From Flavobacterium sp. (lineage in GTDB: Bacteria; Bacteroidota; Bacteroidia; Flavobacteriales; Flavobacteriaceae), in contig JAHRWO010000090.1 of assembly GCA_019105125.1 (NCBI GenBank), positions 1 through 13,530 of the forward strand: 13,530 nucleotides of DNA, in the 5' to 3' direction. The notes under the pieces were generated by a model. The model saw only the letters and a list, made by a program, of their open reading frames with translations, was not told where the DNA came from and did not search any database. Position 1 is the stretch's first letter. The number at the start of each line of letters is the position of its first letter. Position numbers and translations under genes: made by a program. Below are positions 1 to 13,530 of this stretch, in pieces.

Positions 1-1578
1 TTTGCAAAATCTCAAAAATTGCAATCGAAAGGCATTAAGGTTTTAAGTTTAATTTTCATTGACAAGGTTTCAAACTATATGGGTGAAGAACCCAAGATTA
101 AAAACCTATTCGTTGAAAAATACAAAGCCATTTATCCAGAATACAACGATGGCAAAATTCCAACAGACCAACAAATTCAGGAATTGCAAGGATATTATTT
201 TGCACAAAATGCCAAAGGCGAGTATTCAGATAACGAGGGTGGTTTGAAAGAGCAAAAGAAAATCTACGAACTTATTTTACAGAAGAAGGACGAATTGTTG
301 ACAATAGGAAACTCAATTGAGTTTGTTTTTTCTCACTCGGCTTTAGGTGTTGGTTGGGATAATCCCAATGTTTTCAATATTGCAACTCTCAACACAGCAT
401 ATTCAGAAATTCGTAAACGCCAGGAAATAGGCAGAGGTTTGCGTATTTGCGTAAACCAACAAGGGCAACGTGTTTATGATGCCTTAAATGCAGAAGATGC
501 AGACAGAGTAAACCAATTGACTGTTATACCAAACGAAACATACGAAACCTTTGTAACGCAGTATCAGGAAGAAATTAAAGAAGTTTACGGAACAACCAAA
601 GCAGGTGCAGGGCTTACACATACACACAAAGGAAAACCGCAAAATGAAGTTCATTTTAAACGCAACACAAGCGAGCCGATTGATGCAGCTTTCAAACGCT
701 TTTGGAAATCATTAGCCAAGAAAACAGATTATCTTATTTCCTTCAACGAAGGAAATCTCATTGAAAAATCAATAGAGGAAATCAACAAAATAAATATTGC
801 CGATTATGTGGCAGAAGTAAGCAGCCGTTCAATTGGCGAAATTACAGAAGAAGGAATAAAAGATGAATTTGGAGGAACAGAAACTTATGCTTTGAAAGCC
901 TACTTCACCCCTTTGGATTTGGTGGAAGAACTAAGCGAAAACACAGGACTAAGTTACCCGACACTTTTTAAAATAGTTGAAGGAATTACCAATCACGAGC
1001 ATTTTGTAAAAAATCCACCGCAATTTATTCATCAGGCAGCAGCCATCATTCGCAACATTGAATTAGACGAAATGATAAGAGGACTTGACTATCACTTGAC
1101 TGGTGAAGATTTTCCATTCTCCTTTGATGATTTTGTAAAAAACATTACACCACAGGCGTATGTGGAAACTCCCAAAAGAGGCGTGTTTGATAAAATGCTT
1201 GTGGATAGTGATGTAGAAAGATGGTTTGCTAAAACAGCCGACCTTGATGATGAAATAATTTGTTTCCTCAAGCTTCCCAGCTATTACAAAATAAAAACAC
1301 CTATTGGCGAATATGAACCCGACTTTGGTTTGGTAATGAAACGCAAGAGCCTGAAAACAGGAAGTGAAAGCGAATATTATTTTGTAATTGAAACCAAAGG
1401 AACAAACGACATCAACGATAAAAAGTCGTTAACCGAAAGTGAAGTTTACCGCATTAAATGTGCAATGAAACACTTTGAAGCCCTTGGCGTGGAAGTGCAT
1501 TACAAAGCACCGGTAAAAGAATACAGCTACTTTAAAACAGAAGCTACCAAAACCATTAATAGTCTGAACCAGAATTAA
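1..1578 (+). CDS. res: Type III restriction enzyme, Res subunit (3' part of gene, start outside window)
   Basis: Res is the ATP-dependent translocase/endonuclease subunit of a Type III R-M enzyme and works with Mod, encoded downstream. The frame is open from base 1, so the true start and the Walker A and DEAD-box motifs lie upstream; 525 codons are visible. Seen here: an SF2 helicase motif V-like stretch (HSALGVGWDNP) followed by motif VI QEIGRGLR at visible residues 141-148. A C-terminal PD-(D/E)xK nuclease site follows, with P440-D441 and E464-T-K466. This is the family layout: helicase core first, nuclease last. Full Res proteins are usually around 850-1000 residues, so roughly 40-50% is missing. 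A TTG at 19 is in frame but is not a credible start, because the reading frame and family similarity continue through it. The next gene begins 12 nt after the stop. There is no internal frameshift in the visible part. Confidence 0.93.
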   Translation, partial: FAKSQKLQSKGIKVLSLIFIDKVSNYMGEEPKIKNLFVEKYKAIYPEYNDGKIPTDQQIQELQGYYFAQNAKGEYSDNEGGLKEQKKIYELILQKKDELLTIGNSIEFVFSHSALGVGWDNPNVFNIATLNTAYSEIRKRQEIGRGLRICVNQQGQRVYDALNAEDADRVNQLTVIPNETYETFVTQYQEEIKEVYGTTKAGAGLTHTHKGKPQNEVHFKRNTSEPIDAAFKRFWKSLAKKTDYLISFNEGNLIEKSIEEINKINIADYVAEVSSRSIGEITEEGIKDEFGGTETYALKAYFTPLDLVEELSENTGLSYPTLFKIVEGITNHEHFVKNPPQFIHQAAAIIRNIELDEMIRGLDYHLTGEDFPFSFDDFVKNITPQAYVETPKRGVFDKMLVDSDVERWFAKTADLDDEIICFLKLPSYYKIKTPIGEYEPDFGLVMKRKSLKTGSESEYYFVIETKGTNDINDKKSLTESEVYRIKCAMKHFEALGVEVHYKAPVKEYSYFKTEATKTINSLNQN

Positions 1579-1590
1579 AAGAATGTAAGA

Positions 1591-1989
1591 ATGGACAGAA
1601 TAAAGAGAACAGTTGAAGAATTTCAGGATTGCACCAGTAAGATAATTGGTTGTGCTATGCGTGTTCATTCAACATTAGGCAATGGTTTTCAGGAAGTGAT
1701 TTACCAAAGAGCGCTAGAAATTGAGATGCGATTAGAGAGTTTAGAATTTCAACGTGAAATGGAAATGCCCGTCATTTACCGTGATGAGCAAATAGGAACT
1801 CGTAGGGTTGATTTCTTGGAGAATGAAATAATGGTTGAACTAAAAGCCATTATTGAGTTAGAAGATGTTCATCTTGCCCAAGCCATCAACTACCTTGAGG
1901 CTTACAATGTAAAAACAGGATTACTTATCAATTTTGGAAGTAAGTCGCTCACATTTAAAAGATTACTAAACAAAAAATTTAGACCGTAA
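1591..1989 (+). CDS. GxxExxY-family small PD-(D/E)xK nuclease-like protein
   Basis: A 132-residue protein recognised by the family signature GFQEVIY at residues 32-38 (G32, E35, Y38). It carries a compact PD-(D/E)xK-type core: D74 in RRVDF, then E83-L-K85, then Q97xxxY101 in a following helix. Family members are small stand-alone proteins, frequent in Bacteroidota, with a predicted nuclease fold and no well-established function that I know of. It sits between res and mod. It starts 12 nt after res, and its TAA shares one base with the mod ATG, so translation of mod is probably coupled to it. An ATG at 1583 is followed at once by a stop, which supports the start at 1591. All likely catalytic residues are present, so it is probably active. 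Whether it serves the R-M system or is an inserted passenger cannot be decided from sequence. Confidence 0.9.
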   Translation: MDRIKRTVEEFQDCTSKIIGCAMRVHSTLGNGFQEVIYQRALEIEMRLESLEFQREMEMPVIYRDEQIGTRRVDFLENEIMVELKAIIELEDVHLAQAINYLEAYNVKTGLLINFGSKSLTFKRLLNKKFRP

Positions 1990-3941
1990 TGGAAGATATA
2001 AAAACAAATTCAGGCAATTCTGAAAATTCCAAAAATTCCGGTTCAGACAATGTGTGGATGCCATTGAGCAACGACTGGAACAAAGAGCGTTTGGAAACTT
2101 TGAAGCAACTATTTCCTGACCTTTTTACAAATGAAGGAAAGTTGAATATCAATGAACTGAAAAAAGTAGTTGACCCCGAAAGCGTAAGCGAAACAGAACG
2201 CTATGAATTTCGTTGGTTTGGGAAAAGTGCAGCCAAACGCGAAGCATTTTCGCCAAGCAATGCCACATTAGTTTTTGACGAGAAAAGAAGTGTTAATCCA
2301 ACAGCAACTGAAAACCTCATTATTGAAGGGGAGAATTTGGAAGTGCTAAAACTATTAAGCACTGCATACAGAGAAAAAGTAAAGTGTATTTACATTGACC
2401 CGCCTTACAACACTGGAAAAGATTTTGTGTATTCTGACAATTATTCGCAAGACAAAAAAGCATATTGGGAAGATGCAGGCGTAACCGAAGAAGGATTAAA
2501 AATTGACACCAATACCGAAACAGACGGACGTTACCACAGCAATTGGCTGAATATGATGTATAGCCGTTTGCTTATTGCAAGGCAACTTTTGCGTGAAGAT
2601 GGAGTGATTTTTATTTCGATTGATGATACGGAGGTTCATCATTTAAGAAAACTATGTGATGAAGTTTTTGGCGAAGAAAATTTTATTTCTACTGTTATTT
2701 GGGAGCGTTCATTCTCTCCCGTTAATCTTAAAAAGCACTTTTCATTATCTCACGACTACATTTTGTGTGTTTCAAAGAACATTGAACTACTTGAAAATTT
2801 CGGGATTGCCCGTAATGGAGATAACGATGATGGCAGATATAATAATCCTGACAATGACCCAAGAGGAGATTGGACTTCTTCCGATATGACGGTCGGACCT
2901 GCTATTTCTGAAAAAATCTATGAAATTAAAACGCCCTCTGGAAAAGTTGTTTTACCAACAAGCGGAAGATGTTGGCTTTTTACAAAAGAAAGATACGAGG
3001 AAATGTTAGCTGATAATAGAATATGGTTTGGTGAAAATGGCTCCAATGTTCCTCGTGTTAAGAAATTCCTTACTGAGGTTAAACAAGGAATTACACCTAT
3101 GACGATATGGAAATATTCAGAGGTTGGACACAGTCAGGAAGCTGCACAGAGATTAAAAGAGTTATTTGATGGCAAGGACATTTTTGATTATCCTAAATCT
3201 GTTCCTTTATTGAAACGACTTTTACAGCTTTACACTACAAGTAATGATATTATTCTTGATTTTTTTGCTGGTTCAGGCTCTTGTGGTCAGGCTGTATTTG
3301 AGTTAAATAAAGAAGATGGGAATAACAGAAAATTTATTTTAGTTCAAATTCCTGAGGTTACTGACGAAAAAAGTGAAGCTTTCAAAGCAGGTTACAAAAA
3401 AATCAGTGACATTACCATAGAACGTAACAAGCGAGTTGCTGATAGAATTATTAAAGAAAAAAAGAAAGAGCAACCTGATTTATTTACCAACGGACATAAA
3501 GAAGATGCAATAAAAGGTTTGGGCTTCAAAGTTTTCAAATTGGTAAAATCTAACTTTCCAAGAGTTGAGTTTGCTCCCGACCCTGAAAAGACAACCGAAG
3601 AAAATATTGAGTTACTGAAAAAATATATTAGAGACAAAGAAGCACAACTCAATACCGCTTTCAATCGTGATGAATTAGTAACCGAAATTTTAATTAAAAA
3701 CGGCTTTACACTCAATTACACTTTAACCAAGCAAGAGGAGTTTAAGAAAAATGATATCTTCTTTGCCACAGACGGAGAAAAAGAAACTTTGATTTGCTTA
3801 GACATTTCCATTGATATGGAAACCGTAGAGCATTTCAAAAAACACAACACTCAAAAATTCATTTGCCTTGAACGTGCTTTAGACACCACCAAAAAATGGA
3901 ACTTGAAGCATTATTTAGGTGATAAATTTAATGCGTTTTAA
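1989..3941 (+). CDS. mod: Type III DNA methyltransferase, Mod subunit (N6-adenine, beta class)
   Basis: Mod recognises the target sequence and methylates adenine using S-adenosylmethionine; it also supplies specificity to Res. The 650 residues fit the family. The catalytic motif IV, DPPYNTGKDF, starts at D137. The SAM-binding motif I, DFFAGSG, is at 424-430 (F426, G428, G430). Catalytic motif before SAM motif is the beta-class order typical of Type III Mod. The region between them (about 230-400), including the stretch after EENF, should hold the target-recognition domain. A low-complexity NSx repeat lies at residues 7-18. The start ATG overlaps the stop of the upstream gene by one base. The next gene begins 9 nt after the stop. 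Classical systems have mod first and res second; here mod is downstream. No frameshift is seen. The recognition sequence cannot be read from the protein. Confidence 0.95.
   Translation: MEDIKTNSGNSENSKNSGSDNVWMPLSNDWNKERLETLKQLFPDLFTNEGKLNINELKKVVDPESVSETERYEFRWFGKSAAKREAFSPSNATLVFDEKRSVNPTATENLIIEGENLEVLKLLSTAYREKVKCIYIDPPYNTGKDFVYSDNYSQDKKAYWEDAGVTEEGLKIDTNTETDGRYHSNWLNMMYSRLLIARQLLREDGVIFISIDDTEVHHLRKLCDEVFGEENFISTVIWERSFSPVNLKKHFSLSHDYILCVSKNIELLENFGIARNGDNDDGRYNNPDNDPRGDWTSSDMTVGPAISEKIYEIKTPSGKVVLPTSGRCWLFTKERYEEMLADNRIWFGENGSNVPRVKKFLTEVKQGITPMTIWKYSEVGHSQEAAQRLKELFDGKDIFDYPKSVPLLKRLLQLYTTSNDIILDFFAGSGSCGQAVFELNKEDGNNRKFILVQIPEVTDEKSEAFKAGYKKISDITIERNKRVADRIIKEKKKEQPDLFTNGHKEDAIKGLGFKVFKLVKSNFPRVEFAPDPEKTTEENIELLKKYIRDKEAQLNTAFNRDELVTEILIKNGFTLNYTLTKQEEFKKNDIFFATDGEKETLICLDISIDMETVEHFKKHNTQKFICLERALDTTKKWNLKHYLGDKFNAF
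2007..2042 (+). repeat. Four-unit degenerate 9-nt tandem repeat near the mod 5' end
   Basis: Four units beginning AATTC or AATTCT (at 2007, 2016, 2025 and 2034) encode a run of Asn-Ser-x at residues 7-18 of Mod. The unit is a multiple of three, so unit gain or loss would change length but not frame. Copies differ at the last bases. Confidence 0.6.
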
Positions 3942-3950
3942 AGTATTCCT

Positions 3951-5903
3951 ATGGCAACAAAAAAATCAAATACAATGTTTCAGGGTTCTTTATTTGAGGA
4001 AGATTATCTCATAAGAACTCTTGGTGCGTTAGTTCATTCCCCTGAAATTGCATTGACTGAATTGGTTGCCAATGCTTGGGACGCAGGTGCTACAAGAGTT
4101 GAAATATTAATTCCTGATGATTACAATTTGAAATTGGTTGTTGAAGATAATGGAACAGGATTAACTAAAGAGCAATTTGAAAACCGTTGGATGCGGTTGG
4201 GTTATAACAGAATTAAGCATCAAGGAAAGAATGTAATTTTTCCTCCTAATGTTGATGGTAAAAGATTAGCTTATGGGAGAAATGGGGTTGGCAGACACGG
4301 TTTACTTTGTTTCAATAACGAATACACGGTAATAACAAATTCAGGAGGTAAACAATCCAAATTTGTAATATCTACAAAGAGTGAAAATCAACCATTTATA
4401 ATCAAGGAATACAGTTTTGATAAATCAACCACATTCGGAACGCGGCTAGAAGTAATTGTAACCAAAAATCTACCCAAGCCCGAAAAAATACTGGAAATTA
4501 TTTCTGCAAGGTTTTTACACGACCCGAATTTTGTCATTTCCATAAACAAGCAAACTGTTCCATTAGAAGAACATTCGGGTCTTATTGATTCAACTGAAAT
4601 AAAAGTTGATGACATTTCATTAATGGCACATTTTATTGATTCTCAGAAATCGGCAAGGTCAACCTTGTATCAAGGTATTGCATTTTGGCAAAGTAACAGG
4701 CTTGTTGGTGAGCCTTCTTGGGTTTTAGGAAGTGAAGTTGTTATTGACGGCAGGACAAAATTTGCAAAGCGTTATACTGTTGTAATTAAAACCAACGATT
4801 TAGCGGAATATATTTTTGAAGATTGGACTGGATTCAAGAAAGTTGAAACTATGGACAAGGTTTATGCAGAGGTTATATCTTACGTAAACAAAATGTTTTC
4901 TGAAATTGCAAAAGACAGTATTGAAGAAACCAAACAACAAATAAAAAGTGATTTCTCTTCTGAATTTTCCAACTTAACACCGCTTGCAAAATACGAAGTA
5001 AATGAAGCGATTGAAGCAATTACAATTGCACACCCAACCGCAAAACCTGAAACAATTTCTATTGCTGTTGAGGCAATTATCAATCTTGAAAAATCAAGAA
5101 CTGGTAAGGAATTACTGGTAAAACTGGCAAAACTTTCTGATGATGATATTTCAGGATTGAACAGTTTATTAGAGAAATGGTCTGTTAGAGATGCTTTAAG
5201 TGTGTTGGACGAGATTGACAATAGAATTTCTGTTATAGAAGCCATTAGAAAATTATCGAAAGATGAGGATGTTGACGAACTACACGTTTTACATCCACTC
5301 GTTACTGCGGCAAGATGGCTATTTGGACCCGAATTTGAATCGGCTGAATATTCATCCAATCGCCAATTACAAAGTGCTGTTGAGACTGTCTTTAAAAAGA
5401 AGATTGGAAAAGAAGTATTCAACAATCACCGTAAACGTCCAGATATTGTAGTTCTCAATGACGCTACTGCATCTATTACAGGAACAGAAATGTTTGATAA
5501 TGAAACTGGACTTTCAACAGTAAACAAAGTTCTAATCATTGAACTGAAAAGAGGAAAATTTAAACTGACACGTGAAGAACGAAATCAAGCACAAGGATAT
5601 GTTGAAGACTTTGTAAACTGCGGTAGTTTAATCGGAACGCCATACATTGAAGCTTTTGTAGTTGGAGAATCATTTTCAGAAAAAATACAACCAATTTCGA
5701 CAGTTCAGAATGAAAACAAAGTTGAAATGGGTAAAATTCGCATAACAACATTTGGACAATTGGTTGACACTGCGGAGAAACGACTATTCGGGCTTCGACA
5801 AAAATTAAGTGAGCGTTATGACGATATTCCAGGGATGGACTTATTCAGACAACAAGCAACGCAATTGAAAGTTGACTTTGCAAAAGATGGAACAAATAAT
5901 TAA
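3951..5903 (+). CDS. GHKL (MORC/MutL-like) ATPase fused to C-terminal PD-(D/E)xK nuclease domain
   Basis: The 650-residue protein opens with a GHKL ATP-binding fold: N-box ELVANAWDAGA (E37, N41, D44), G1 box EDNGTGL (D66, G68, G70) and G2 box GRNGVGRHG (109-117). This fold dimerises on ATP binding in MutL, Hsp90, gyrase and MORC proteins. Residues about 220-300 are probably the second half of the ATPase module; about 300-440 look helical. From about 445 (LHVLHPLV, then RWLFGPEFES) a nuclease region follows with P497-D498, E531-L-K533 and Q546xxxY550, a PD-(D/E)xK signature. Prokaryotic MORC-like ATPases have been described in restriction-modification loci (work of Iyer, Abhiman and Aravind, recalled from memory), so the context fits. 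It starts 9 nt after mod. Likely role: an ATP-gated DNA clamp carrying a nuclease. The C-terminal region could alternatively be Shedu-like. Both active sites look intact. The fold call is firm; the function is inferred. Confidence 0.87.
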   Translation: MATKKSNTMFQGSLFEEDYLIRTLGALVHSPEIALTELVANAWDAGATRVEILIPDDYNLKLVVEDNGTGLTKEQFENRWMRLGYNRIKHQGKNVIFPPNVDGKRLAYGRNGVGRHGLLCFNNEYTVITNSGGKQSKFVISTKSENQPFIIKEYSFDKSTTFGTRLEVIVTKNLPKPEKILEIISARFLHDPNFVISINKQTVPLEEHSGLIDSTEIKVDDISLMAHFIDSQKSARSTLYQGIAFWQSNRLVGEPSWVLGSEVVIDGRTKFAKRYTVVIKTNDLAEYIFEDWTGFKKVETMDKVYAEVISYVNKMFSEIAKDSIEETKQQIKSDFSSEFSNLTPLAKYEVNEAIEAITIAHPTAKPETISIAVEAIINLEKSRTGKELLVKLAKLSDDDISGLNSLLEKWSVRDALSVLDEIDNRISVIEAIRKLSKDEDVDELHVLHPLVTAARWLFGPEFESAEYSSNRQLQSAVETVFKKKIGKEVFNNHRKRPDIVVLNDATASITGTEMFDNETGLSTVNKVLIIELKRGKFKLTREERNQAQGYVEDFVNCGSLIGTPYIEAFVVGESFSEKIQPISTVQNENKVEMGKIRITTFGQLVDTAEKRLFGLRQKLSERYDDIPGMDLFRQQATQLKVDFAKDGTNN

Positions 5904-5921
5904 TTCATTTTAATTAAAGAA

Positions 5922-6794
5922 ATGTTATTGCAGCAAAAGACATTAGAGAAACTAAGAAATTTAATCAATAAAGAAACCGAATATCGTTCGGGGCCAAAAC
6001 TCGTTGATTTCTTTAATGGTTTAGGAGCAAACGACACATATAACAGAGGTGGTGGTTTCCCTTCTCGATGGATTTATACGGACGAAAAACTATCGAACAT
6101 CAACGGCACACCCGAACTCGATAAATGTATTCGTAAACTTTTTGCACCTGTAAATTTTATTGGTCGCTTTGCAGAATTGGACAAATTCATTGCTGACTTC
6201 AATCAATACCTTGCATTTGACGGATGGCAGGTTTTAAGAAAGGAAACCGAAATAACATTTGCCAAGGCAGGTAAAATAAAATTTGAAGAAAAGGTTGAAG
6301 TAAAGGAGGATGATTTTTTACAAAAGGAATTTAGCGATATTTCCCTCGACAAATTAGGCTTGGACAGCATCATTACAGAAACATTGAACCTTCGTTTTGA
6401 CGAAATAAAAAAATGTTTAAATGCTAAAGCTCCAATGTCTGTCATATTCCTTTCTGGTAGTTCACTTGAAGGGATACTGTTAGGAATTGCATCAAAACTT
6501 CCGAGAGAATTTAACCAATCAAGAACATCGCCTAAAGACCAAAGCGGAAAAGTAAAACCATATCACGAATGGACACTTAGCAATTTCATTGACACAGCAC
6601 ACGACATCGGAATTTTGAAAGAGGACGTTAAGAAATTCAGCCATTCACTGCGTGACTTTAGAAATTACATTCATCCTTACGAACAGGTAAGTTCAAGATT
6701 TAATCCTGATGAACATACAGCAAGAATTTGTTGGCAAGTGTTGAAAGCTGCAATTTATCAACTAACAAACAACAAACCCAATGCACAGGTGTAA
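5922..6794 (+). CDS. Hypothetical protein with HEPN-like RNxxH C-terminal motif, possible abortive-infection partner
   Basis: I do not recognise a characterised family for this 290-residue protein. There is no signal peptide or membrane segment. The N-terminal part (1-105) has a conserved-looking glycine/aromatic block (GGGFPSRW around 44-51). Residues about 125-165 are charged and helical. The C-terminal part (about 170-285) looks all-helical and contains SLRDFRNYIHPYEQ with R244, R247, N248 and H251. R244 to H251 has the Rx6H spacing of HEPN-type ribonucleases, and an RN pair is typical of them, though RNxxH is shorter than the usual RNxxxH. HEPN domains are frequent in abortive-infection and toxin proteins. 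It starts 18 nt after the GHKL-nuclease gene with an A-rich leader (AAAGAA), so it is probably co-transcribed and may be its partner. It could also be a non-catalytic HEPN scaffold. The gene call is firm; the function is inferred. Confidence 0.7.
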   Translation: MLLQQKTLEKLRNLINKETEYRSGPKLVDFFNGLGANDTYNRGGGFPSRWIYTDEKLSNINGTPELDKCIRKLFAPVNFIGRFAELDKFIADFNQYLAFDGWQVLRKETEITFAKAGKIKFEEKVEVKEDDFLQKEFSDISLDKLGLDSIITETLNLRFDEIKKCLNAKAPMSVIFLSGSSLEGILLGIASKLPREFNQSRTSPKDQSGKVKPYHEWTLSNFIDTAHDIGILKEDVKKFSHSLRDFRNYIHPYEQVSSRFNPDEHTARICWQVLKAAIYQLTNNKPNAQV

Positions 6795-7026
6795 GCACAT
6801 TTGCAAACCGCTACAAGCCGACCCGCAGACCAAAGTTTGCAAAAGAACTTCCACCTCTCCCACCCGAGAAAAATTATTTTTTAAAATTTCCTTCCCTTCA
6901 AAAATTTTTAAAACCGCAACCGCACAACCGATACATAAAGACCAAAACACAAACCTGACAATGACAGCGAAACCCTTATCAGACCTGACTTTCACGACAC
7001 GGACAACAGAACGCCATCTGGTAACA

Positions 7027-7139
7027 GCGGTTTGGCGTAATGGCGGGTTCAGTGGTAAATTGAAGTTCAGTAATTCTTGTCAAGTTTTGTGGTGGGTTGA
7101 CAGTTTTGTGCTTCTAAATCCGCCACTTCGCCAAGCCGC
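7027..7139. repeat. Imperfect 26-bp inverted repeat with 61-nt loop
   Basis: The left arm 7027-7052 and the reverse complement of the right arm 7114-7139 match at 21 of 26 positions by eye (cores TTGGCG and TGGCGG conserved in order). The loop is 7053-7113. The arms are much more GC-rich than the surrounding genes. It looks like a dispersed palindromic intergenic element or a structured RNA/DNA hairpin. It has no U-tract at its end, so it is not a typical intrinsic terminator. Confidence 0.6.
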
Positions 7140-7233
7140 AAACCGTTGGCAACAAGTGTAAAAAGACAGACGACAGACAGATACGATATTGACAAAATTA
7201 AAATAAGAAAGGATTTAGCTTTTTGACAGGACA

Positions 7234-7397
7234 GTGCAAATTTGATGGAAATTTATTTTGTTTTTTTCTTCCCCCCGCAAAAAAAGAAGAAAGAAACTCC
7301 ACCCACATTGCACACATTGCCAAAGCCCCACAAGCCAACGCTGAAGCCAAAGCTTTGTCAAAGAGTTCAATCTTGCCGACACACCCGTGCAAATTTG
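7234..7397. repeat. Direct repeat GTGCAAATTTG (two copies)
   Basis: Identical 11-mers at 7234-7244 and 7387-7397, 153 nt apart start to start. The second copy lies just upstream of the proposed -7 element of the hsdM promoter. It could be a pair of regulator sites or the flanks of a small insertion; chance is not excluded in AT-rich DNA. Confidence 0.45.
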
Positions 7398-7406
7398 TTA
7401 CATTTG
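7373..7406 (+). promoter_or_regulatory. Candidate Bacteroidota-type promoter for the hsdM operon
   Basis: TACATTTG at 7399-7406 matches the Bacteroidota -7 consensus TAnnTTTG. A TTG at 7373-7375 lies 23 nt upstream, at the long end of the accepted spacing for the -33 element. Transcription would start near 7413, giving a leader of about 30 nt before the hsdM ATG at 7442. The leader is A/T-rich without a Shine-Dalgarno motif, as usual for this phylum. Confidence 0.45.
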
Positions 7407-7441
7407 AGCTTTAATTAAACGGATTTTGAGATTATAAAAAT

Positions 7442-9016
7442 ATGAGTGAAGACCAAAAGAAAGTATTAGAACAACAACTCTGGAATATTGCCAATACCCT
7501 GAGAGGTAAAATGAATGCTGACGAGTTCCGTGATTACATACTCGGATTTATTTTTTATAAATACTTGTCGGAGAAAATGGAGATTTATGCAAATACCATT
7601 CTGAAACAGGACAAAATAAAATACCACGACATACAGGAAAACACCAAACAAGGCAAAGAATACATTGAAGCCATAAAAGAAGAATCACTTGAAAAATTGG
7701 GTTACTTCTTAAAACCTTCCGAATTGTTTGGTGAAGTTGCAAAACGTGGAAACGGCAACGGAAACAAGGACAAAGAAAGTAATTTCATACTTGAAGATTT
7801 ACAAAAAATCCTGACTAATATCCAACTTAGTACAATGGGAACGGCAAGCGAAGAGGACTTTGACAACCTCTTTGAGGATATGGATTTGAACAGCACAAAA
7901 CTTGGAAAATCACCCGAAACAAGAAATGAAATTATTGCAAAGGTGCTGTCGCACCTCGACAAGATTGATTTTAAACTTGAACATACGGAACTTGACGTTT
8001 TGGGCGATGCTTACGAATATCTGATTGGACAGTTTGCCAGTGGAGCAGGGAAAAAAGCAGGGGAATTTTATACACCACAACAGGTCTCAATGGTTTTAGC
8101 AAAATTGGTTACAACAGGAAAGACCAAACTAAAAACTGTTTACGACCCAACTTGTGGTTCGGGTTCTTTATTGTTGCGTGTGGCAAAGGAAGTAAAAGAA
8201 GTAAGCAACTTTTACGGACAGGAAATGAACCGCACCACTTACAACCTTGCCCGAATGAATATGATTTTGCACGGTGTGCATTATCTTAAATTCGACATAA
8301 AGCAAGAGGACACTTTAGAACATCCACAACACATTGACAAACAATTTGAAGCCATTGTCGCTAATCCACCATTTTCGGCACAATGGAGTGCAAACCCATT
8401 GTTTACAAGCGATGACCGTTTTAGCCAATACGGAAAATTAGCACCAAGCAGTAAAGCCGATTATGCCTTCGTGCAACATATGATTTACCATTTAGCCGAC
8501 AACGGCACAATGGCAATTGTTTTGCCGCACGGGGCATTATTCAGAAGCGGTGCAGAACAGCATATCCGTAAATATTTAATTGAGGACAAAAACTATTTGG
8601 ACGCAGTTATTGGTTTACCTGCAAACTTGTTTTATGGCACACCGATACCAACCTGCATAATGGTTTTCAAAAAGTGCAGAGAAAATCCCGAAAATGTATT
8701 ATTCATTAACGCAGCCGAATATTTTGAGCGTGGTACGCAAAACACATTACGCCCCCAAGATATTGATAGAATTATTTCAACTTACAGAGAACGCAAAGAA
8801 GTTGAAAAGTACAGCAGTTTGGCTACTCTTGAATTTATTGCTGAAAACGATTATAACCTGAATATTCCCCGATATGTAAACACGTTTGAGGAAGAAGCAC
8901 CAATTGACATTTCGGAAGTTTCAAAACAATTGAAAAGCCTTGAAAAAGAAATGAAAAGCACCGATGAAGAATTGATTGCTTTTTGTAAAGAATTAAAAAT
9001 TGACACGCCGTTTTAA
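7442..9016 (+). CDS. hsdM: Type I restriction-modification system DNA methyltransferase subunit HsdM
   Basis: HsdM transfers a methyl group from SAM to N6 of adenine and joins HsdS (methylase) or HsdS plus HsdR (full restriction enzyme). The 524 residues match the usual length. Residues 1 to about 150 form the HsdM N-terminal helical domain (start MSEDQKKVLEQQLWNIANTL). The methylase core follows: DPTCGSGS at 235-242 is the SAM-binding motif I, and NPPF at 308-311 is the catalytic motif IV, in the motif I then IV order of gamma-class adenine methylases. The ATG at 7442 follows an A-rich leader and gives the family N-terminus. hsdS starts 3 nt after the stop. The gene is first in its operon, behind a candidate promoter. 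It appears intact. Confidence 0.97.
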   Translation: MSEDQKKVLEQQLWNIANTLRGKMNADEFRDYILGFIFYKYLSEKMEIYANTILKQDKIKYHDIQENTKQGKEYIEAIKEESLEKLGYFLKPSELFGEVAKRGNGNGNKDKESNFILEDLQKILTNIQLSTMGTASEEDFDNLFEDMDLNSTKLGKSPETRNEIIAKVLSHLDKIDFKLEHTELDVLGDAYEYLIGQFASGAGKKAGEFYTPQQVSMVLAKLVTTGKTKLKTVYDPTCGSGSLLLRVAKEVKEVSNFYGQEMNRTTYNLARMNMILHGVHYLKFDIKQEDTLEHPQHIDKQFEAIVANPPFSAQWSANPLFTSDDRFSQYGKLAPSSKADYAFVQHMIYHLADNGTMAIVLPHGALFRSGAEQHIRKYLIEDKNYLDAVIGLPANLFYGTPIPTCIMVFKKCRENPENVLFINAAEYFERGTQNTLRPQDIDRIISTYRERKEVEKYSSLATLEFIAENDYNLNIPRYVNTFEEEAPIDISEVSKQLKSLEKEMKSTDEELIAFCKELKIDTPF

Positions 9017-9019
9017 ACT

Positions 9020-10264
9020 ATGGAAAAACTACTAGGCAAAATACCGCAAATTAGGTTTCCAGAGTTTAAAGAAACTTGGGAACACAAGAAATTAAGCGAT
9101 TTATTAAGCGAATCGAAACTAAAAAATACTGATTTAAAATACGACAAAGACGAAGTTTTATCGGTTTCGGGCGAATTAGGCATTGTAAACCAAATTGAAC
9201 ATTTGGGCAGAAGTTACGCTGGCGAATCGGTTCACAATTACGGAGTAGTTGAAACGGGCGATATTGTTTACACCAAAAGCCCATTAAAAGCAAATCCGTT
9301 CGGCATTATTAAGCTCAATAAAGGCAAAGCGGGTATTGTATCTACTCTTTATGCAGTTTATAAAGTAAATCATAAAAACGCCTTCGGCGCTTTTATTGAT
9401 TACTATTTCTCGTTGGATGCCAATACAAACCGCTATTTGCGACCATTGGTTAGAAAAGGGGCGAAAAATACATTGCAGATTACCAATGAGGAAGCAATTA
9501 GTTCTGAAATATTTGTACCAACAATTGACGAACAAAAACGCATTGCTTCTTTCCTCACGGTTTTAGACAAGAAAATAACTCAGCTCAAACAAAAGAAAAA
9601 CCTTTTGGAGCATTACAAAAAAGGAGTAATGCAAAAAATATTCACTCAGGAGCTTCGCTTTAAAGATGAAAATGGTAAAGAGTTTCCGAATTGGCAGAAA
9701 AAGACACTTGGCGAAATATTTTCAATTTTTAACGGATACGCATTTGCAAGCGAAGATACTGTTACAGAAGGAATCCTTTGGGTGAAAATTGCTGATGTTG
9801 GTATTCAAGAAATGAGAAAAGAAAATTTATCATTCCTTCCTTATGACTATTTTGAGAAACACAAAAAATTCATTTTAAAAAAGGGAGATTATGTAATTGC
9901 ACTCACTCGTCCAATACTAAGCGGAGAACTTAAAATAGCTGTCATTGATGATTTTTTTAATAATTCACTTTTAAATCAAAGGGTTGGTAAAATTGTAAGC
10001 GAGCACAATACAACTTTCGTCTATTATATGTTACAATTATCTTGGCTAATTAAAGCAATTGAGAATAATATTGCTGGTACAGACCCGCCTAATTTATCAC
10101 CCAAGGAAATAGATTTTATCAAAATATCAATACCACAAAAAAAGGAACAAAATAAAATCGCCAATTTTCTTGCAACTATTGACGATAAAATAAACCGAAC
10201 CGAAAACCAGTTACAGCAAACCCAAGAATACAAAAAGGGTTTACTTCAAAAAATGTTTTGTTGA
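9020..10264 (+). CDS. hsdS: Type I restriction-modification specificity subunit HsdS
   Basis: HsdS sets the bipartite DNA target of the Type I enzyme. The 414 residues form two half-repeats. TRD1 is about 20-168, followed by a conserved helical spacer at 170-208 (EQKRIASFL ... YKKGVMQKIF). TRD2 is about 225-372, opening with NWQKKTLGEIF, followed by the second spacer at 374-413 (EQNKIANFL ... YKKGLLQKMF). The spacers align with an offset of 205 residues, so the protein has the usual pseudo-symmetric structure in which the helices set the spacing between the two half-sites. The start is 3 nt after hsdM, consistent with coupled synthesis. The stop is 2 nt before the GIY-YIG gene's ATG. Both TRDs look complete. 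The DNA target cannot be deduced from the sequence alone. Confidence 0.96.
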   Translation: MEKLLGKIPQIRFPEFKETWEHKKLSDLLSESKLKNTDLKYDKDEVLSVSGELGIVNQIEHLGRSYAGESVHNYGVVETGDIVYTKSPLKANPFGIIKLNKGKAGIVSTLYAVYKVNHKNAFGAFIDYYFSLDANTNRYLRPLVRKGAKNTLQITNEEAISSEIFVPTIDEQKRIASFLTVLDKKITQLKQKKNLLEHYKKGVMQKIFTQELRFKDENGKEFPNWQKKTLGEIFSIFNGYAFASEDTVTEGILWVKIADVGIQEMRKENLSFLPYDYFEKHKKFILKKGDYVIALTRPILSGELKIAVIDDFFNNSLLNQRVGKIVSEHNTTFVYYMLQLSWLIKAIENNIAGTDPPNLSPKEIDFIKISIPQKKEQNKIANFLATIDDKINRTENQLQQTQEYKKGLLQKMFC

Positions 10265-10266
10265 TT

Positions 10267-10710
10267 ATGAATTTAACAGAGACAGAAATATTAGAAATAG
10301 TTGATAATTGCGAAAAGGAACTTAAAACTAAAAAACGTATAAAGTTCTCTTTTGATAAAAAATGGTCAGACAATTTCCCCCAAAAAGCAGGAATATATGC
10401 CATTTTTTATAAAGATAACTTTGTATATGTTGGTGAATCTGCCAACTTAAAGGAAAGAATGAAAGAAGTGAAAAGAACCTACAACCATTCATTTAGGCGA
10501 AAATTAGGTAAGTTTTTAAAGCCTGATGCAGTTATAGAAAAGGGCAAGTTCAGTAATGATTTAGAATTACTATTAAATGAACATTACGAAAATTTTTTGA
10601 AGTTCACTTTCAAGGAAGTCAACTTTGGGCGTATTGAAATTGAAAATTATCTTATGCAAAAAAATGAGGGTGTGTTAAATTCAATTGGAAAAAGAGGAAT
10701 TATAAAATGA
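10267..10710 (+). CDS. Small GIY-YIG nuclease-domain protein inside the hsd operon
   Basis: A 147-residue protein with a GIY-YIG nuclease core: AGIYAIFY (G42-I-Y44), YVG at 54-56 and the catalytic-position R64 in NLKERM. A later glutamate in the segment IENYL (E126) fits the metal-binding position, followed by N138. Residues 1-37 form a helical N-terminal extension. The start is the ATG at 10267, 2 nt after the hsdS stop; an in-frame TTG at 10258 is possible but would overlap hsdS. The stop overlaps the hsdR start as ATGA (10707-10710), so hsdR translation is probably coupled to it. GIY-YIG domains occur in homing, repair and restriction enzymes. Here it may be an accessory nuclease of the Type I system or a selfish insertion. 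No DNA-binding domain beyond the core is evident. Confidence 0.88.
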   Translation: MNLTETEILEIVDNCEKELKTKKRIKFSFDKKWSDNFPQKAGIYAIFYKDNFVYVGESANLKERMKEVKRTYNHSFRRKLGKFLKPDAVIEKGKFSNDLELLLNEHYENFLKFTFKEVNFGRIEIENYLMQKNEGVLNSIGKRGIIK

Positions 10711-13530
10711 GCAAGCAACCCGAACAAATATTAGAAGAACAATTGGTTGAGCAACTTCAAAAGCTCAATTACAGTTTGGTAATTATCAGAGACGAAAAGG
10801 AGTTGATTGCCAACCTTAAAAGCCAGTTAGAAAAGCACAACAATATAAAATTTTCCGATAGCGAATTTGAAAAAGTCCTGAATATTCTCAGCAAAGGTTC
10901 GGTTTTCGAGAAAGCGAAAACACTTAGGGAAAAACAGCACATAGTTAGGGATAACGGCGACAATTTGTATTTTGAATTTATCCAAACCGAGCATTGGTGC
11001 CAAAACCAGTTTCAGGTTACGCATCAGGTTACGATGGAAGGCAAATACAAAAACCGCTATGATGTTACTTTGCTTATTAATGGTTTGCCTTTGGTACAAA
11101 TTGAACTAAAACGCCGAGGGCTTGAACTCAAAGAAGCATTCAACCAAATAAACCGTTATCAACGTCATTCATTTGGTGCAAATTCAGGTTTGTACCAGTA
11201 CATTCAAATATTCGTTATCAGCAATGGCGTAAACACAAAGTATTATGCCAACAACAGGTTTCAATCATTTAAACAAACTTTTTTCTGGACTGATAAAGAG
11301 AATAAAAGACTTACAAATATTCTCAACGGTTTTACAAGCGAGTTTTTAGAACCTTGCCACATATCGAAAATGATTTGCAAGTACATTGTGCTGAACGAAA
11401 CGCAAAAAATACTAATGGTGCTTCGCCCTTATCAGTTTTATGCAGTCGAAGCACTTGTCGATAAGGTGATGCACAGCCGAAGCAACGGCTATATTTGGCA
11501 CACCACAGGTTCGGGAAAAACGCTAACTTCGTTTAAAGCCAGTCAGATTTTGACCGCTTTACCAAAAGTTAAAAAAGTGGTTTTTGTAGTTGACCGTAAA
11601 GATTTGGATTACCAAACAACCAAAGAATTTAACAGTTTTAGTAAAGGAAGTATTGACGGAACGGACAATACAAAAGCATTGGTTAAACAATTTACAGATG
11701 ATACCAAACTGATTGTTACCACCATTCAAAAACTCAATACCGCCATAAGCAAACAGCATTATGTGGCAAAAATGGAAAAACTCAAAGATGAACGCATCGT
11801 TTTCATCTTCGATGAGTGCCACCGTTCACAATTTGGCGAAACACACGGAAGAATTAACAAGTTTTTCAATAATCCGCAAATGTTCGGTTTTACAGGAACG
11901 CCCATATTTGCCGACAATGCCGTTAAAAACGAATTAGGAAAACGCACCACCAAAGAACTGTTTGGCGATTGCTTGCACAAATACGTCATTACCGATGCCA
12001 TAAAGGACGAAAATGTTTTAAAATTCTCGGTTGAATATGTTGGCAGGTACAAACGAAAAGATACCGCCACCGAAATAGATATTGAGGTAGAAGATATCGA
12101 CACAAAAGAGTTGATGGAATCGCCTTTACGTTTAGAAAAGATTGCAGATTATATTTTAGCAAACCACAACCGTAAAACGCACAATAAAGAATTTACCGCA
12201 ATGTTTTGCGTGAGTGGCATTGAAACGCTGATAAAGTATTATGATATTTTCCAAAAGAAAAAAGACGAAGGCAAACACAACTTAAAAATTGCCACCATTT
12301 TCAGTTACGCAGCCAACGAAGAAGATGCAGACGCAAATGGTTTTATCCCCGAAGAACTTTCGGTTGTGGAAGAACCACGGGCTTTATATGGTTTACAGGC
12401 TCATAGTCGTGAAAAACTGGACGAGTATATTGAACATTACAACAAAATGTTTGAGACAAAATTCTCGACCAAAGACAGCGAATCATTTTACAATTATTAC
12501 AACGATATTTCAAAGAAAGTTAAGGAACGAAAAATTGATATTTTGCTTGTGGTAAATATGTATTTGACAGGTTTTGACAGTCCACCATTAAATACTTTGT
12601 ACGTTGACAAAAATCTGAAATATCACGGTTTAATTCAAGCCTATTCACGCACCAACAGAATACTAAACGAGCAAAAATCTCAGGGAAATATTGTTGTTTT
12701 CCGCAATCTCAAAAATGCAACAGACGAAGCAATAACCTTGTTCAGCAACAAAGAAGCGATAGAGGTTATCATAATGAAACCATACGAGGATTATGTAAAG
12801 AAATTCAACGAAGCGTTTATTTCCTTGCTAAAAATTACGCCAACCGTAAACAGCGTAAACGAACTGCAAACCGAGAATGACGAATTGGAATTTATCAAAG
12901 CATTCAGGGAACTGATGCGGATAAAAAACATTCTAACTGCATTTGCCGACTTCAAATGGCAAGATTTGGCAATGAATGAGCAACTTTTCGAGGACTTTAA
13001 AAGCAAATATCTTGACTTGTACGACAAAGTAAAAAGCGACCACCAAAAAGAGAAAGTTTCGATTTTAGAGGATGTGGACTTTGAACTGGAATTAATCCAC
13101 CGAGACGAAATTAATGTTGCTTACATCATTCAATTACTGATAAAACTTAAATCGAAAGTACAAAAAGACGTTTCACAAACCGAAAAGGAAATTTTCAATT
13201 TACTTAATACAGAAGCACATTTACGAAGTAAACGTGAATTGATTGAACTGTTTATAAAGGCTAATTTACCATCAATTGAAGACACAGACGATATTCCGCA
13301 AGAATTTGAAAAATTCTGGAATGCCGAACAACAAAAAGCATTTAACCAACTCGTAAGTGTAGAAAAACTTTCAGCCCAAAGAACACAATCCCTGATTGAA
13401 GATTATTTGTATGCCGAAAGAGAACCGCTTCGTGATGAAATATTGCAATTGCTTGAAGGAGAACAACCAACTCTTTTAGAACGCAAAAAGACAGGCGACA
13501 GAATCTTGAAAAAAATATTGGATTTTGTAG
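10707..13530 (+). CDS. hsdR: Type I restriction endonuclease subunit HsdR (3' end outside window)
   Basis: HsdR is the ATP-driven motor and nuclease of the Type I enzyme. 941 codons are visible and the frame is still open at the last base; typical lengths suggest only a short tail is missing. An N-terminal nuclease domain has D119, E133-L-K135 and Q147xxxY151. The SF2 motor follows: Walker A TTGSGKT at 266-272 (K271), DECH at 369-372, TGTP at 396-399 and motif VI QAYSRTNR at 644-651. The remaining C-terminal part is helical and probably binds the HsdM/HsdS core. The start ATG overlaps the GIY-YIG stop (ATGA), the usual sign of translational coupling. I translated the first two thirds by hand and found no frameshift; the last segment to DFV also reads in the same frame. 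The TAG at 13528-13530 is out of frame and is not its stop. Confidence 0.95.
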   Translation, partial: MSKQPEQILEEQLVEQLQKLNYSLVIIRDEKELIANLKSQLEKHNNIKFSDSEFEKVLNILSKGSVFEKAKTLREKQHIVRDNGDNLYFEFIQTEHWCQNQFQVTHQVTMEGKYKNRYDVTLLINGLPLVQIELKRRGLELKEAFNQINRYQRHSFGANSGLYQYIQIFVISNGVNTKYYANNRFQSFKQTFFWTDKENKRLTNILNGFTSEFLEPCHISKMICKYIVLNETQKILMVLRPYQFYAVEALVDKVMHSRSNGYIWHTTGSGKTLTSFKASQILTALPKVKKVVFVVDRKDLDYQTTKEFNSFSKGSIDGTDNTKALVKQFTDDTKLIVTTIQKLNTAISKQHYVAKMEKLKDERIVFIFDECHRSQFGETHGRINKFFNNPQMFGFTGTPIFADNAVKNELGKRTTKELFGDCLHKYVITDAIKDENVLKFSVEYVGRYKRKDTATEIDIEVEDIDTKELMESPLRLEKIADYILANHNRKTHNKEFTAMFCVSGIETLIKYYDIFQKKKDEGKHNLKIATIFSYAANEEDADANGFIPEELSVVEEPRALYGLQAHSREKLDEYIEHYNKMFETKFSTKDSESFYNYYNDISKKVKERKIDILLVVNMYLTGFDSPPLNTLYVDKNLKYHGLIQAYSRTNRILNEQKSQGNIVVFRNLKNATDEAITLFSNKEAIEVIIMKPYEDYVKKFNEAFISLLKITPTVNSVNELQTENDELEFIKAFRELMRIKNILTAFADFKWQDLAMNEQLFEDFKSKYLDLYDKVKSDHQKEKVSILEDVDFELELIHRDEINVAYIIQLLIKLKSKVQKDVSQTEKEIFNLLNTEAHLRSKRELIELFIKANLPSIEDTDDIPQEFEKFWNAEQQKAFNQLVSVEKLSAQRTQSLIEDYLYAEREPLRDEILQLLEGEQPTLLERKKTGDRILKKILDFV

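Follow-up and report, generated by a model that had tools for sequence, protein, structure and literature searches.

We analysed a 13,530-nucleotide (nt) stretch of Flavobacterium sp. DNA (assembly GCA_019105125.1, contig JAHRWO010000090.1; hereafter the window), in which a gene for a GHKL/MORC-type ATPase (A) and a gene for a HEPN-fold protein (B) follow type III restriction-modification (R-M) genes and precede an attC-like element. The window covers positions 1-13530 of the contig, numbered C117 here, and the host assembly amounts to 2.19 Mb in 402 contigs.

ParaMORC3 proteins join a GHKL domain and an S5-type region to a C-terminal domain of restriction-endonuclease type with E-D-ExK residues (Iyer, Abhiman and Aravind 2008, PMC2292703; the literature is cited from the portions available). 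They are prevalent in proteobacteria and Bacteroidetes, some being linked to R-M systems and others standing alone (PMC2292703). A has the GHKL domain, the S5-type region and the E-D-ExK residues in common with them. It differs by the signature GhXhhpXXRhl (residues 242-252), which paraMORCs lack according to the available portion of PMC2292703, and by its position between mod and a HEPN gene. In VcSduA, a protein reported to be of Shedu type and paraMORC3-like, a GHKL ATPase is joined to a PD-(D/E)xK domain at the C-terminus, and phage defence depends on both sites (PMC12137116). The layout of A is the same, as judged in A by signature residues. However, SduA_C gives no match in window A at E ≤ 1 and weak matches in 3 of 31 A members at E ≤ 0.1 (best E 0.0035). 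HEPN proteins with AbiJ-type exchangeable N-terminal domains, encoded in or beside R-M operons, were proposed to be suicidal RNases (PMC3710099). B shares the exchangeable N-terminal domains and the R-M vicinity, whereas its second N-terminal domain, NTD-2, and the concentration of NTD-2 at type I systems are not described in the available portion of PMC3710099.

Sedentary chromosomal integrons have been presented as defence biobanks (Darracq 2025, as cited in PMC12409362). The Flavobacterium arrays described below resemble them, as far as the available text goes, in having folded-site cassette arrays, a recombinase at the head and phage-defence cargo, but their recombinase is of XerA/XerC type without the IntI-specific region, and their units reach at least 5 kb and contain R-M genes. 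According to the available text of PMC9024848, the only complete integron of Bacteroidota, beyond those of Chlorobi/Ignavibacteriae, is that of Salinibacter ruber. The Flavobacterium arrays have three integron traits, namely same-strand matched cores (G375, G084 and L025), conservation of the folded site and a recombinase at the head; they lack an IntI with its specific extra domain.

A and B in the type III operon

We consider it fairly probable that A and B are independent accessory defence genes on a type III R-M operon that is, or was, an integron-like Flavobacterium cassette. The original prediction had seen in them one two-gene module. Its open reading frames (ORFs), its spacings (A starts 9 nt past mod and B 18 nt past A, on the same strand) and its motif positions were all found again in the window sequence, and the R-M neighbourhood that it described stands, res and mod lying upstream by Pfam and PADLOC matches. 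The module does not. B loci were sampled as the best 80 of 218 genome loci, 14 viral loci and 8 further genome stretches (102 in total, the window not counted). In 90 of these, the low-coordinate side of B spans more than 2.1 kb; for the 94 loci extracted in B orientation, this side is upstream. None of the 102 loci showed A at a score of at least 100 bits. Conversely, none of 13 A loci (5 genome and 8 viral, 8 of the 13 at 200 bits or more) showed B; among them, L113, at a contig end, is fragmentary and L109 stops about 0.7 kb past A. Neither gene occurs at 29 mod loci besides the window, within about 1.45 kb of flank, and locus L014 shows res-mod-B without A. On these adjacency counts, a conserved A-B pair was rejected, and a recurring pair is not supported in the loci examined. 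Since homologues are rarely adjacent, the prediction loses its pairing; it keeps its HEPN fold, which was found in B. The linkage count takes in no locus of the metagenomic relatives of A at 95-99%, among which there may be a local lineage with A and B fixed.

The features of the window are the following.

1-1578, + strand: res, type III restriction subunit, 3' part, truncated by the contig start (RE_endonuc E 4.3e-30; PADLOC REase_III E 5.5e-92)
1591-1989, + strand: GxxExxY / PDDEXK_3 protein in the res-mod interval (PDDEXK_3 E 1.4e-36; GxxExxY E 5.2e-38)
1989-3941, + strand: mod, type III methyltransferase (N6_N4_Mtase E 1.9e-35; PADLOC MTase_III E 4.7e-180)
3951-5903, + strand: A, GHKL/MORC-type ATPase with a C-terminal PD-(D/E)xK-like nuclease signature
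5346-5600, + strand: A residues 466-550, with E466, D498, E531xK533 and Q546xxxY550
5922-6794, + strand: B, HEPN-fold protein with an exchangeable N-terminal domain
5922-6296, + strand: B residues 1-125, N-terminal domain type 1 (NTD-1, Stk2/AbiJ-like; PADLOC Stk2 N-terminus, AbiJ N-terminal domain in two members)
6651-6674, + strand: B motif R244..R247-N248-Y-I-H251
7018-7150, + strand: attC-like recombination element, putative 3' end of a cassette (covariance model R1, 136.9 bits; folding; covariation)
7442-13529, + strand: next unit, type I R-M genes hsdM, hsdS, GIY-YIG protein and hsdR, reaching the contig end

Two loci, L014 and L038, have the order res..mod-B with a gap of 2 nt between mod and B. 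The truncated window res aligns to residues 378-900 of the 903-aa L014 res (76%), and L014 has neither A nor a GxxExxY gene at the res-mod junction. Window position 3940, at the end of mod, and window position 5918, at the start of B, both align to L014 position 7997; therefore, A is placed exactly between mod and B. The closest B genes (L009-L011, 95-96%) come after IIG-type genes, and the DNA match between the window and L009 starts 10 nt upstream of B and extends to 7147. Because the L014 alignment brackets A and the L009 match begins just before B, either A would have been inserted into a mod-B operon or B would have been replaced. At the res-mod junction, the window carries the GxxExxY protein (1591-1989), L038 a 287-aa protein and a SocA/Panacea protein (4711-6040), and L014 nothing. 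This junction may be a second insertion slot of the operon.

A is a paraMORC3-like ATPase

The GHKL residues E37, N41, D44, D66, G68, G70, G109, G112 and G114 are kept in all 31 aligned A members, as expected for the GHKL-type ATPase originally proposed, and an S5-type transducer region follows this domain. The nuclease-like C-terminus held up as a residue signature, with D498 and K533 in 31/31 members, E531 in 30/31 and E466 in 28/31 of the rows printed; HSDR_N_2 gives a weak match. The MORC signature GhXhhpXXRhl is present in 26/31 rows, being missing from L120-L123 and L126, and 20 of 5000 shuffles contain the motif. Sequence comparison thus confirmed A as a GHKL/MORC-type ATPase with a nuclease-like C-terminus, an architecture published as paraMORC3. 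Assignment of A to the BbrUII/HgiDII restriction enzymes (NF050001) was rejected, with 116.5 bits for a curated cut-off of 550.

A could be functionally tied to mod and res, as a MORC-type ATPase looping DNA for the R-M complex, B being an unrelated fail-safe. DNA looping was proposed for R-M-linked MORCs (PMC2292703), A begins immediately behind mod, and relatives of A lie by methylases or R-M genes: a C5 methylase in L112 and L126, an Eco57I/TaqI-type enzyme in L110 and a type I HsdR-like gene in L119. However, A is absent from the 29 other mod loci, in L109 it is flanked by YaaC and a peptidase, some paraMORC3 proteins are standalone (PMC2292703), and A has a nuclease signature of its own. 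We find such a tie unlikely.

Distant homologues of A have neighbours of other kinds. On a Rhizobium plasmid (L175, 5001-8406), a gene annotated as Shedu immune nuclease lies 10-11 nt downstream. On a Ti plasmid (L171, 7957-8610), a gene annotated as HepT-like ribonuclease is convergent to the A homologue and is followed by RusA; a comparable pair with RusA occurs near the A homogue of L173.

B has a conserved HEPN domain and exchangeable N-terminal domains

A search with B retrieved 4028 homologues at E ≤ 0.001. Its C-terminal half is a HEPN bundle, in line with the HEPN-like protein first suggested. In the alignment, RNxxH is present in 45/45 members and R244 (Rx6H) in 43/45; DUF4145 matches this part only under its cut-off. 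In 40 of the 45 sequences, NTD-1 matches the N-terminal part of the PADLOC Stk2 model. The PADLOC AbiJ model matches 12/45 members at E ≤ 0.01 (best 4.8e-6), the match falling on the N-terminal part in two of ten members inspected, and gives none for window B in the PADLOC scan. AbiJ_NTD3 matches one of the 45 members weakly (E 0.095).

The remaining five members (L082, L083, L085, L086 and L087) carry an unrelated N-terminal domain, NTD-2: N-terminal identity is 12-19%, whereas HEPN identity is 62-66%. NTD-2 is concentrated at type I systems. R-M genes were called with phmmer seeds at 60 bits or more, on the same strand and within 5 kb of B. Type I genes were found at 9 of 15 NTD-2 loci as compared with 5 of 85 NTD-1 loci (Fisher p 3.9e-6, for loci that are not independent), and type III-like or IIG genes at 16/85 NTD-1 loci as compared with 0/15 NTD-2 loci (Fisher p 0.12). 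In this table the window is left out and two loci are unclassified. Three more are dropped: L114 and L115, which duplicate L009 and L055, and L184, for which no HEPN ORF was picked despite a match in that genome. The loci are related, some viral ones being nearly identical. A 267-aa protein between two array elements (L106, G375:C2:162717-163520) carries the B N-terminal domain but has no match to the HEPN part of B; thus, this domain also travels with another C-terminus.

At some loci B comes after R-M genes of type I, IIG or III; at others, none is in view. Its 55 nearest same-strand neighbours include N6_N4_Mtase (7), N6_Mtase (5) and Methylase_S (4), among the first 25 of 39 families; 64 distant genes of the same loci include one N6_N4_Mtase and one MmeI_Mtase, among the first 25 of 103 families. 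A fail-safe role of B behind R-M genes is plausible.

The element downstream of B has copies in integron-like arrays

The original prediction did not include the attC-like element downstream of B. Because the DNA match ran past B, region 7010-7171 was searched in the host genome and in two members of the genus. Copies of the element form same-strand rows on single contigs. The covariance model R1, built from 15 copies including the one at window 7018-7150, gave 20 matches on G375:C2, 12 on G084:C21, of which 11 were retained, and 6 on G084:C20. Each array contig is one-stranded, save for overlapping shadows of the palindrome; opposite-strand shadows and a weak L199 element (19.5 bits) were left out of the core comparison. 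In an integron, the closing core of site n-1 is part of cassette n, so that it has to agree with the core that opens site n. Consecutive cores of G375, G084 and L025 match at 5 or 6 of 6 positions in 29 of 35 pairs (mean 5.43 of 6), as compared with 45 of 526 non-consecutive pairs (mean 2.45) and 3 of 39 within a single copy. The arrays in two Flavobacterium-genus genomes therefore show the integron hallmark of matched consecutive cores. Elements also lie near B in L017, L078 and L180, where consecutive cores do not match.

The G375 array spans about 152.7-182.6 kb of G375:C2, with 19 intervals of 0.2-8.5 kb. Of its 28 called genes, 27 have the orientation of the array; five called genes, one of them HsdM-like and 1036 aa long, fall in the 8.5 kb interval. 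The flanks (L197, L198) have no R1 match. Elements were found in 82 of 101 genus genomes at E ≤ 1e-5, and 47 of 48 mostly non-Bacteroidota loci have no match at E ≤ 0.01, the sole exception being L017 (Cloacimonadota), with three matches. In the stem, 13 of 20 pairs change on both sides yet stay paired, the structure being predicted on the same alignment.

The 7018-7150 element might instead be a passive genomic repeat, such as a hairpin resembling a miniature inverted-repeat transposable element or a terminator, in an island assembled otherwise. Textbook attC sites have the core consensus GTTRRRY, from whose strict form the present cores depart. The window copy is single and its folding z-score is only -1.65, some elements are far from a recombinase, and no IntI exceeds its family cut-off in three genomes. 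However, cores match between consecutive copies and not within a copy, which is the trace left by insertion at G^TT, and the strand bias of the G375 genes and the compensatory stem changes also speak against a passive repeat. It is improbable.

An XerA/XerC-type recombinase at array heads

A tyrosine recombinase gene is located at the head of the G084:C20 array, 816 bases from the nearest element. Among the matches listed, 15 comparisons paired a recombinase with elements of its own contig, and in 12 the two were no more than 15 kb apart. These 12 recombinases stand at the array head in every case and on the same strand in 10; the head recombinase of the G375 array is frameshifted. At E ≤ 1e-60, the recombinase is found in 48 of 101 genus genomes, 43 of which also have elements (Fisher p 0.045).

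Its best solved relatives are XerC-like/XerA (147.7 and 142.9 bits), followed by IntI4 (126.5). The IntI-specific region is absent, 65 residues of the IntI4 chain facing 23 query residues in the alignment. The IntI4 alignment continues through a shared C-terminal SP motif, the XerA alignments stopping before it. TIGR02249 matches in two pieces, under its cut-off, with positions ~177-237 unmatched; this is no proof of an integron integrase, since sub-cut-off matches occur in 14/14 control genomes.

R-M genes and B within cassettes

In L009 (F. profundi), both ends of a unit were found, from element 1234-1314 (45.4 bits) to element 6757-6889. The interval codes for a IIG enzyme and B together with two smaller genes, and the opening core is GTTACCAGC at 1309. 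This is the one complete cassette of an R-M enzyme with B for which both ends were found. In L025, B stands alone between elements 7842-7975 and 9205-9335, whose cores match 6 of 6. Only the 3' element is seen in the window, L010, L012 and L013, and only the 5' element in L027. L010 shares its sequence with L009 from the L009 core onward and differs before it, a pattern that would fit one cassette present at two different places. A 9-nt match to the core, with C before it, occurs at 3649 in L010 and at 4134 in L012, but neither locus showed an element upstream (7.1 and 7.2 bits with the search filters turned off).

From the 3' element, the lack of any other element in the window and the L009 example, we infer that res-mod-A-B, of which the contig start cuts res, form one cassette. 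If so, an element ending with the core CGTTACCAGAT would be expected just 5' of the window res. No second piece of res was found in the host genome.

Other features of the window

The next unit has a GIY-YIG protein at 10258-10710, in the hsdS-hsdR interval of the type I system. The motif GCACATTTGCA.. follows B (6794-6850), with similar forms in L009, L012, L014 and L127, and a 20-nt imperfect direct repeat flanks 7225-7397. A 126-aa ORF (6781-7161) overlapping the end of B is probably not a gene, because it has no Pfam family and runs across the attC-like element. A promoter scan of the window found 13 candidates, for 17.4 in shuffles, and an Rfam search of the window gave 0 matches.

Discussion

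We favour A and B as separate accessory genes on a type III operon within an integron-like cassette. Family knowledge (PMC3710099, PMC2292703, PMC12137116) and motif conservation suggest that A would cut DNA and that B would be an RNase gated by a sensor. A may be an autonomous clamp-nuclease, gated by ATP and directed against incoming DNA, that works alongside mod and res. B would be an R-M-linked fail-safe, whose Stk2/AbiJ-type N-terminal domain would sense infection or restriction failure and release the HEPN RNase, stopping the cell. The 7018-7150 element would be a cassette recombination site, used by the XerA-like tyrosine recombinase encoded elsewhere in the genome, and the cassettes may still be moving.

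Several observations weigh against this explanation. The structure search of A lists no nuclease fold, GHKL rows filling the listed matches. The window has a single element and the 5' boundary core is not in the contig; allowing two mismatches at most, this core occurs at 23 places in the genome, for 19 with a backward control. Five of the 48 recombinase genomes have no element and 39 of the 82 element genomes have no recombinase at E ≤ 1e-60. Finally, the phmmer seeds detect no R-M gene at 64 of 85 NTD-1 loci, and at 34 of 80 B loci no gene on the strand of B lies within 60 nt. The last two counts contradict the idea that B is always R-M-linked.

That A and B form a dedicated two-gene system, an ATP-gated clamp with DNase plus an RNase triggered when type III restriction fails, is very improbable in view of the adjacency counts and of the L014 operon, even though the two genes follow each other closely on one strand behind mod, paraMORC-HEPN(Ymh) fusions in R-M neighbourhoods have been described (PMC3710099) and the distant A homologue of the Ti plasmid adjoins a putative HepT-like ribonuclease gene.

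The tempting two-gene system gives way to two testable things, an R-M-linked HEPN protein and a cassette-collecting system, and this larger cassette context is more interesting than the A-B pair. The acquisition of a suicide back-up by R-M systems would be accounted for by such a HEPN protein, whose N-terminal domains are exchangeable. For the genus, we hold it to be evenly balanced whether Flavobacterium has a widespread integron-like platform, overlooked by IntI-based searches, in which an XerA-like recombinase without the IntI domain would serve to store and move whole R-M operons as single cassettes of at least 5 kb, together with the HEPN fail-safe B, whose sensor domain would be exchanged according to the R-M type. 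Such a cassette-collecting system would belong to a phylum where integrons are reported to be very rare, with a recombinase that lacks the region marking integron integrases. If this recombinase joins folded sites, one could directly test whether integrons descend from Xer-type recombinases.

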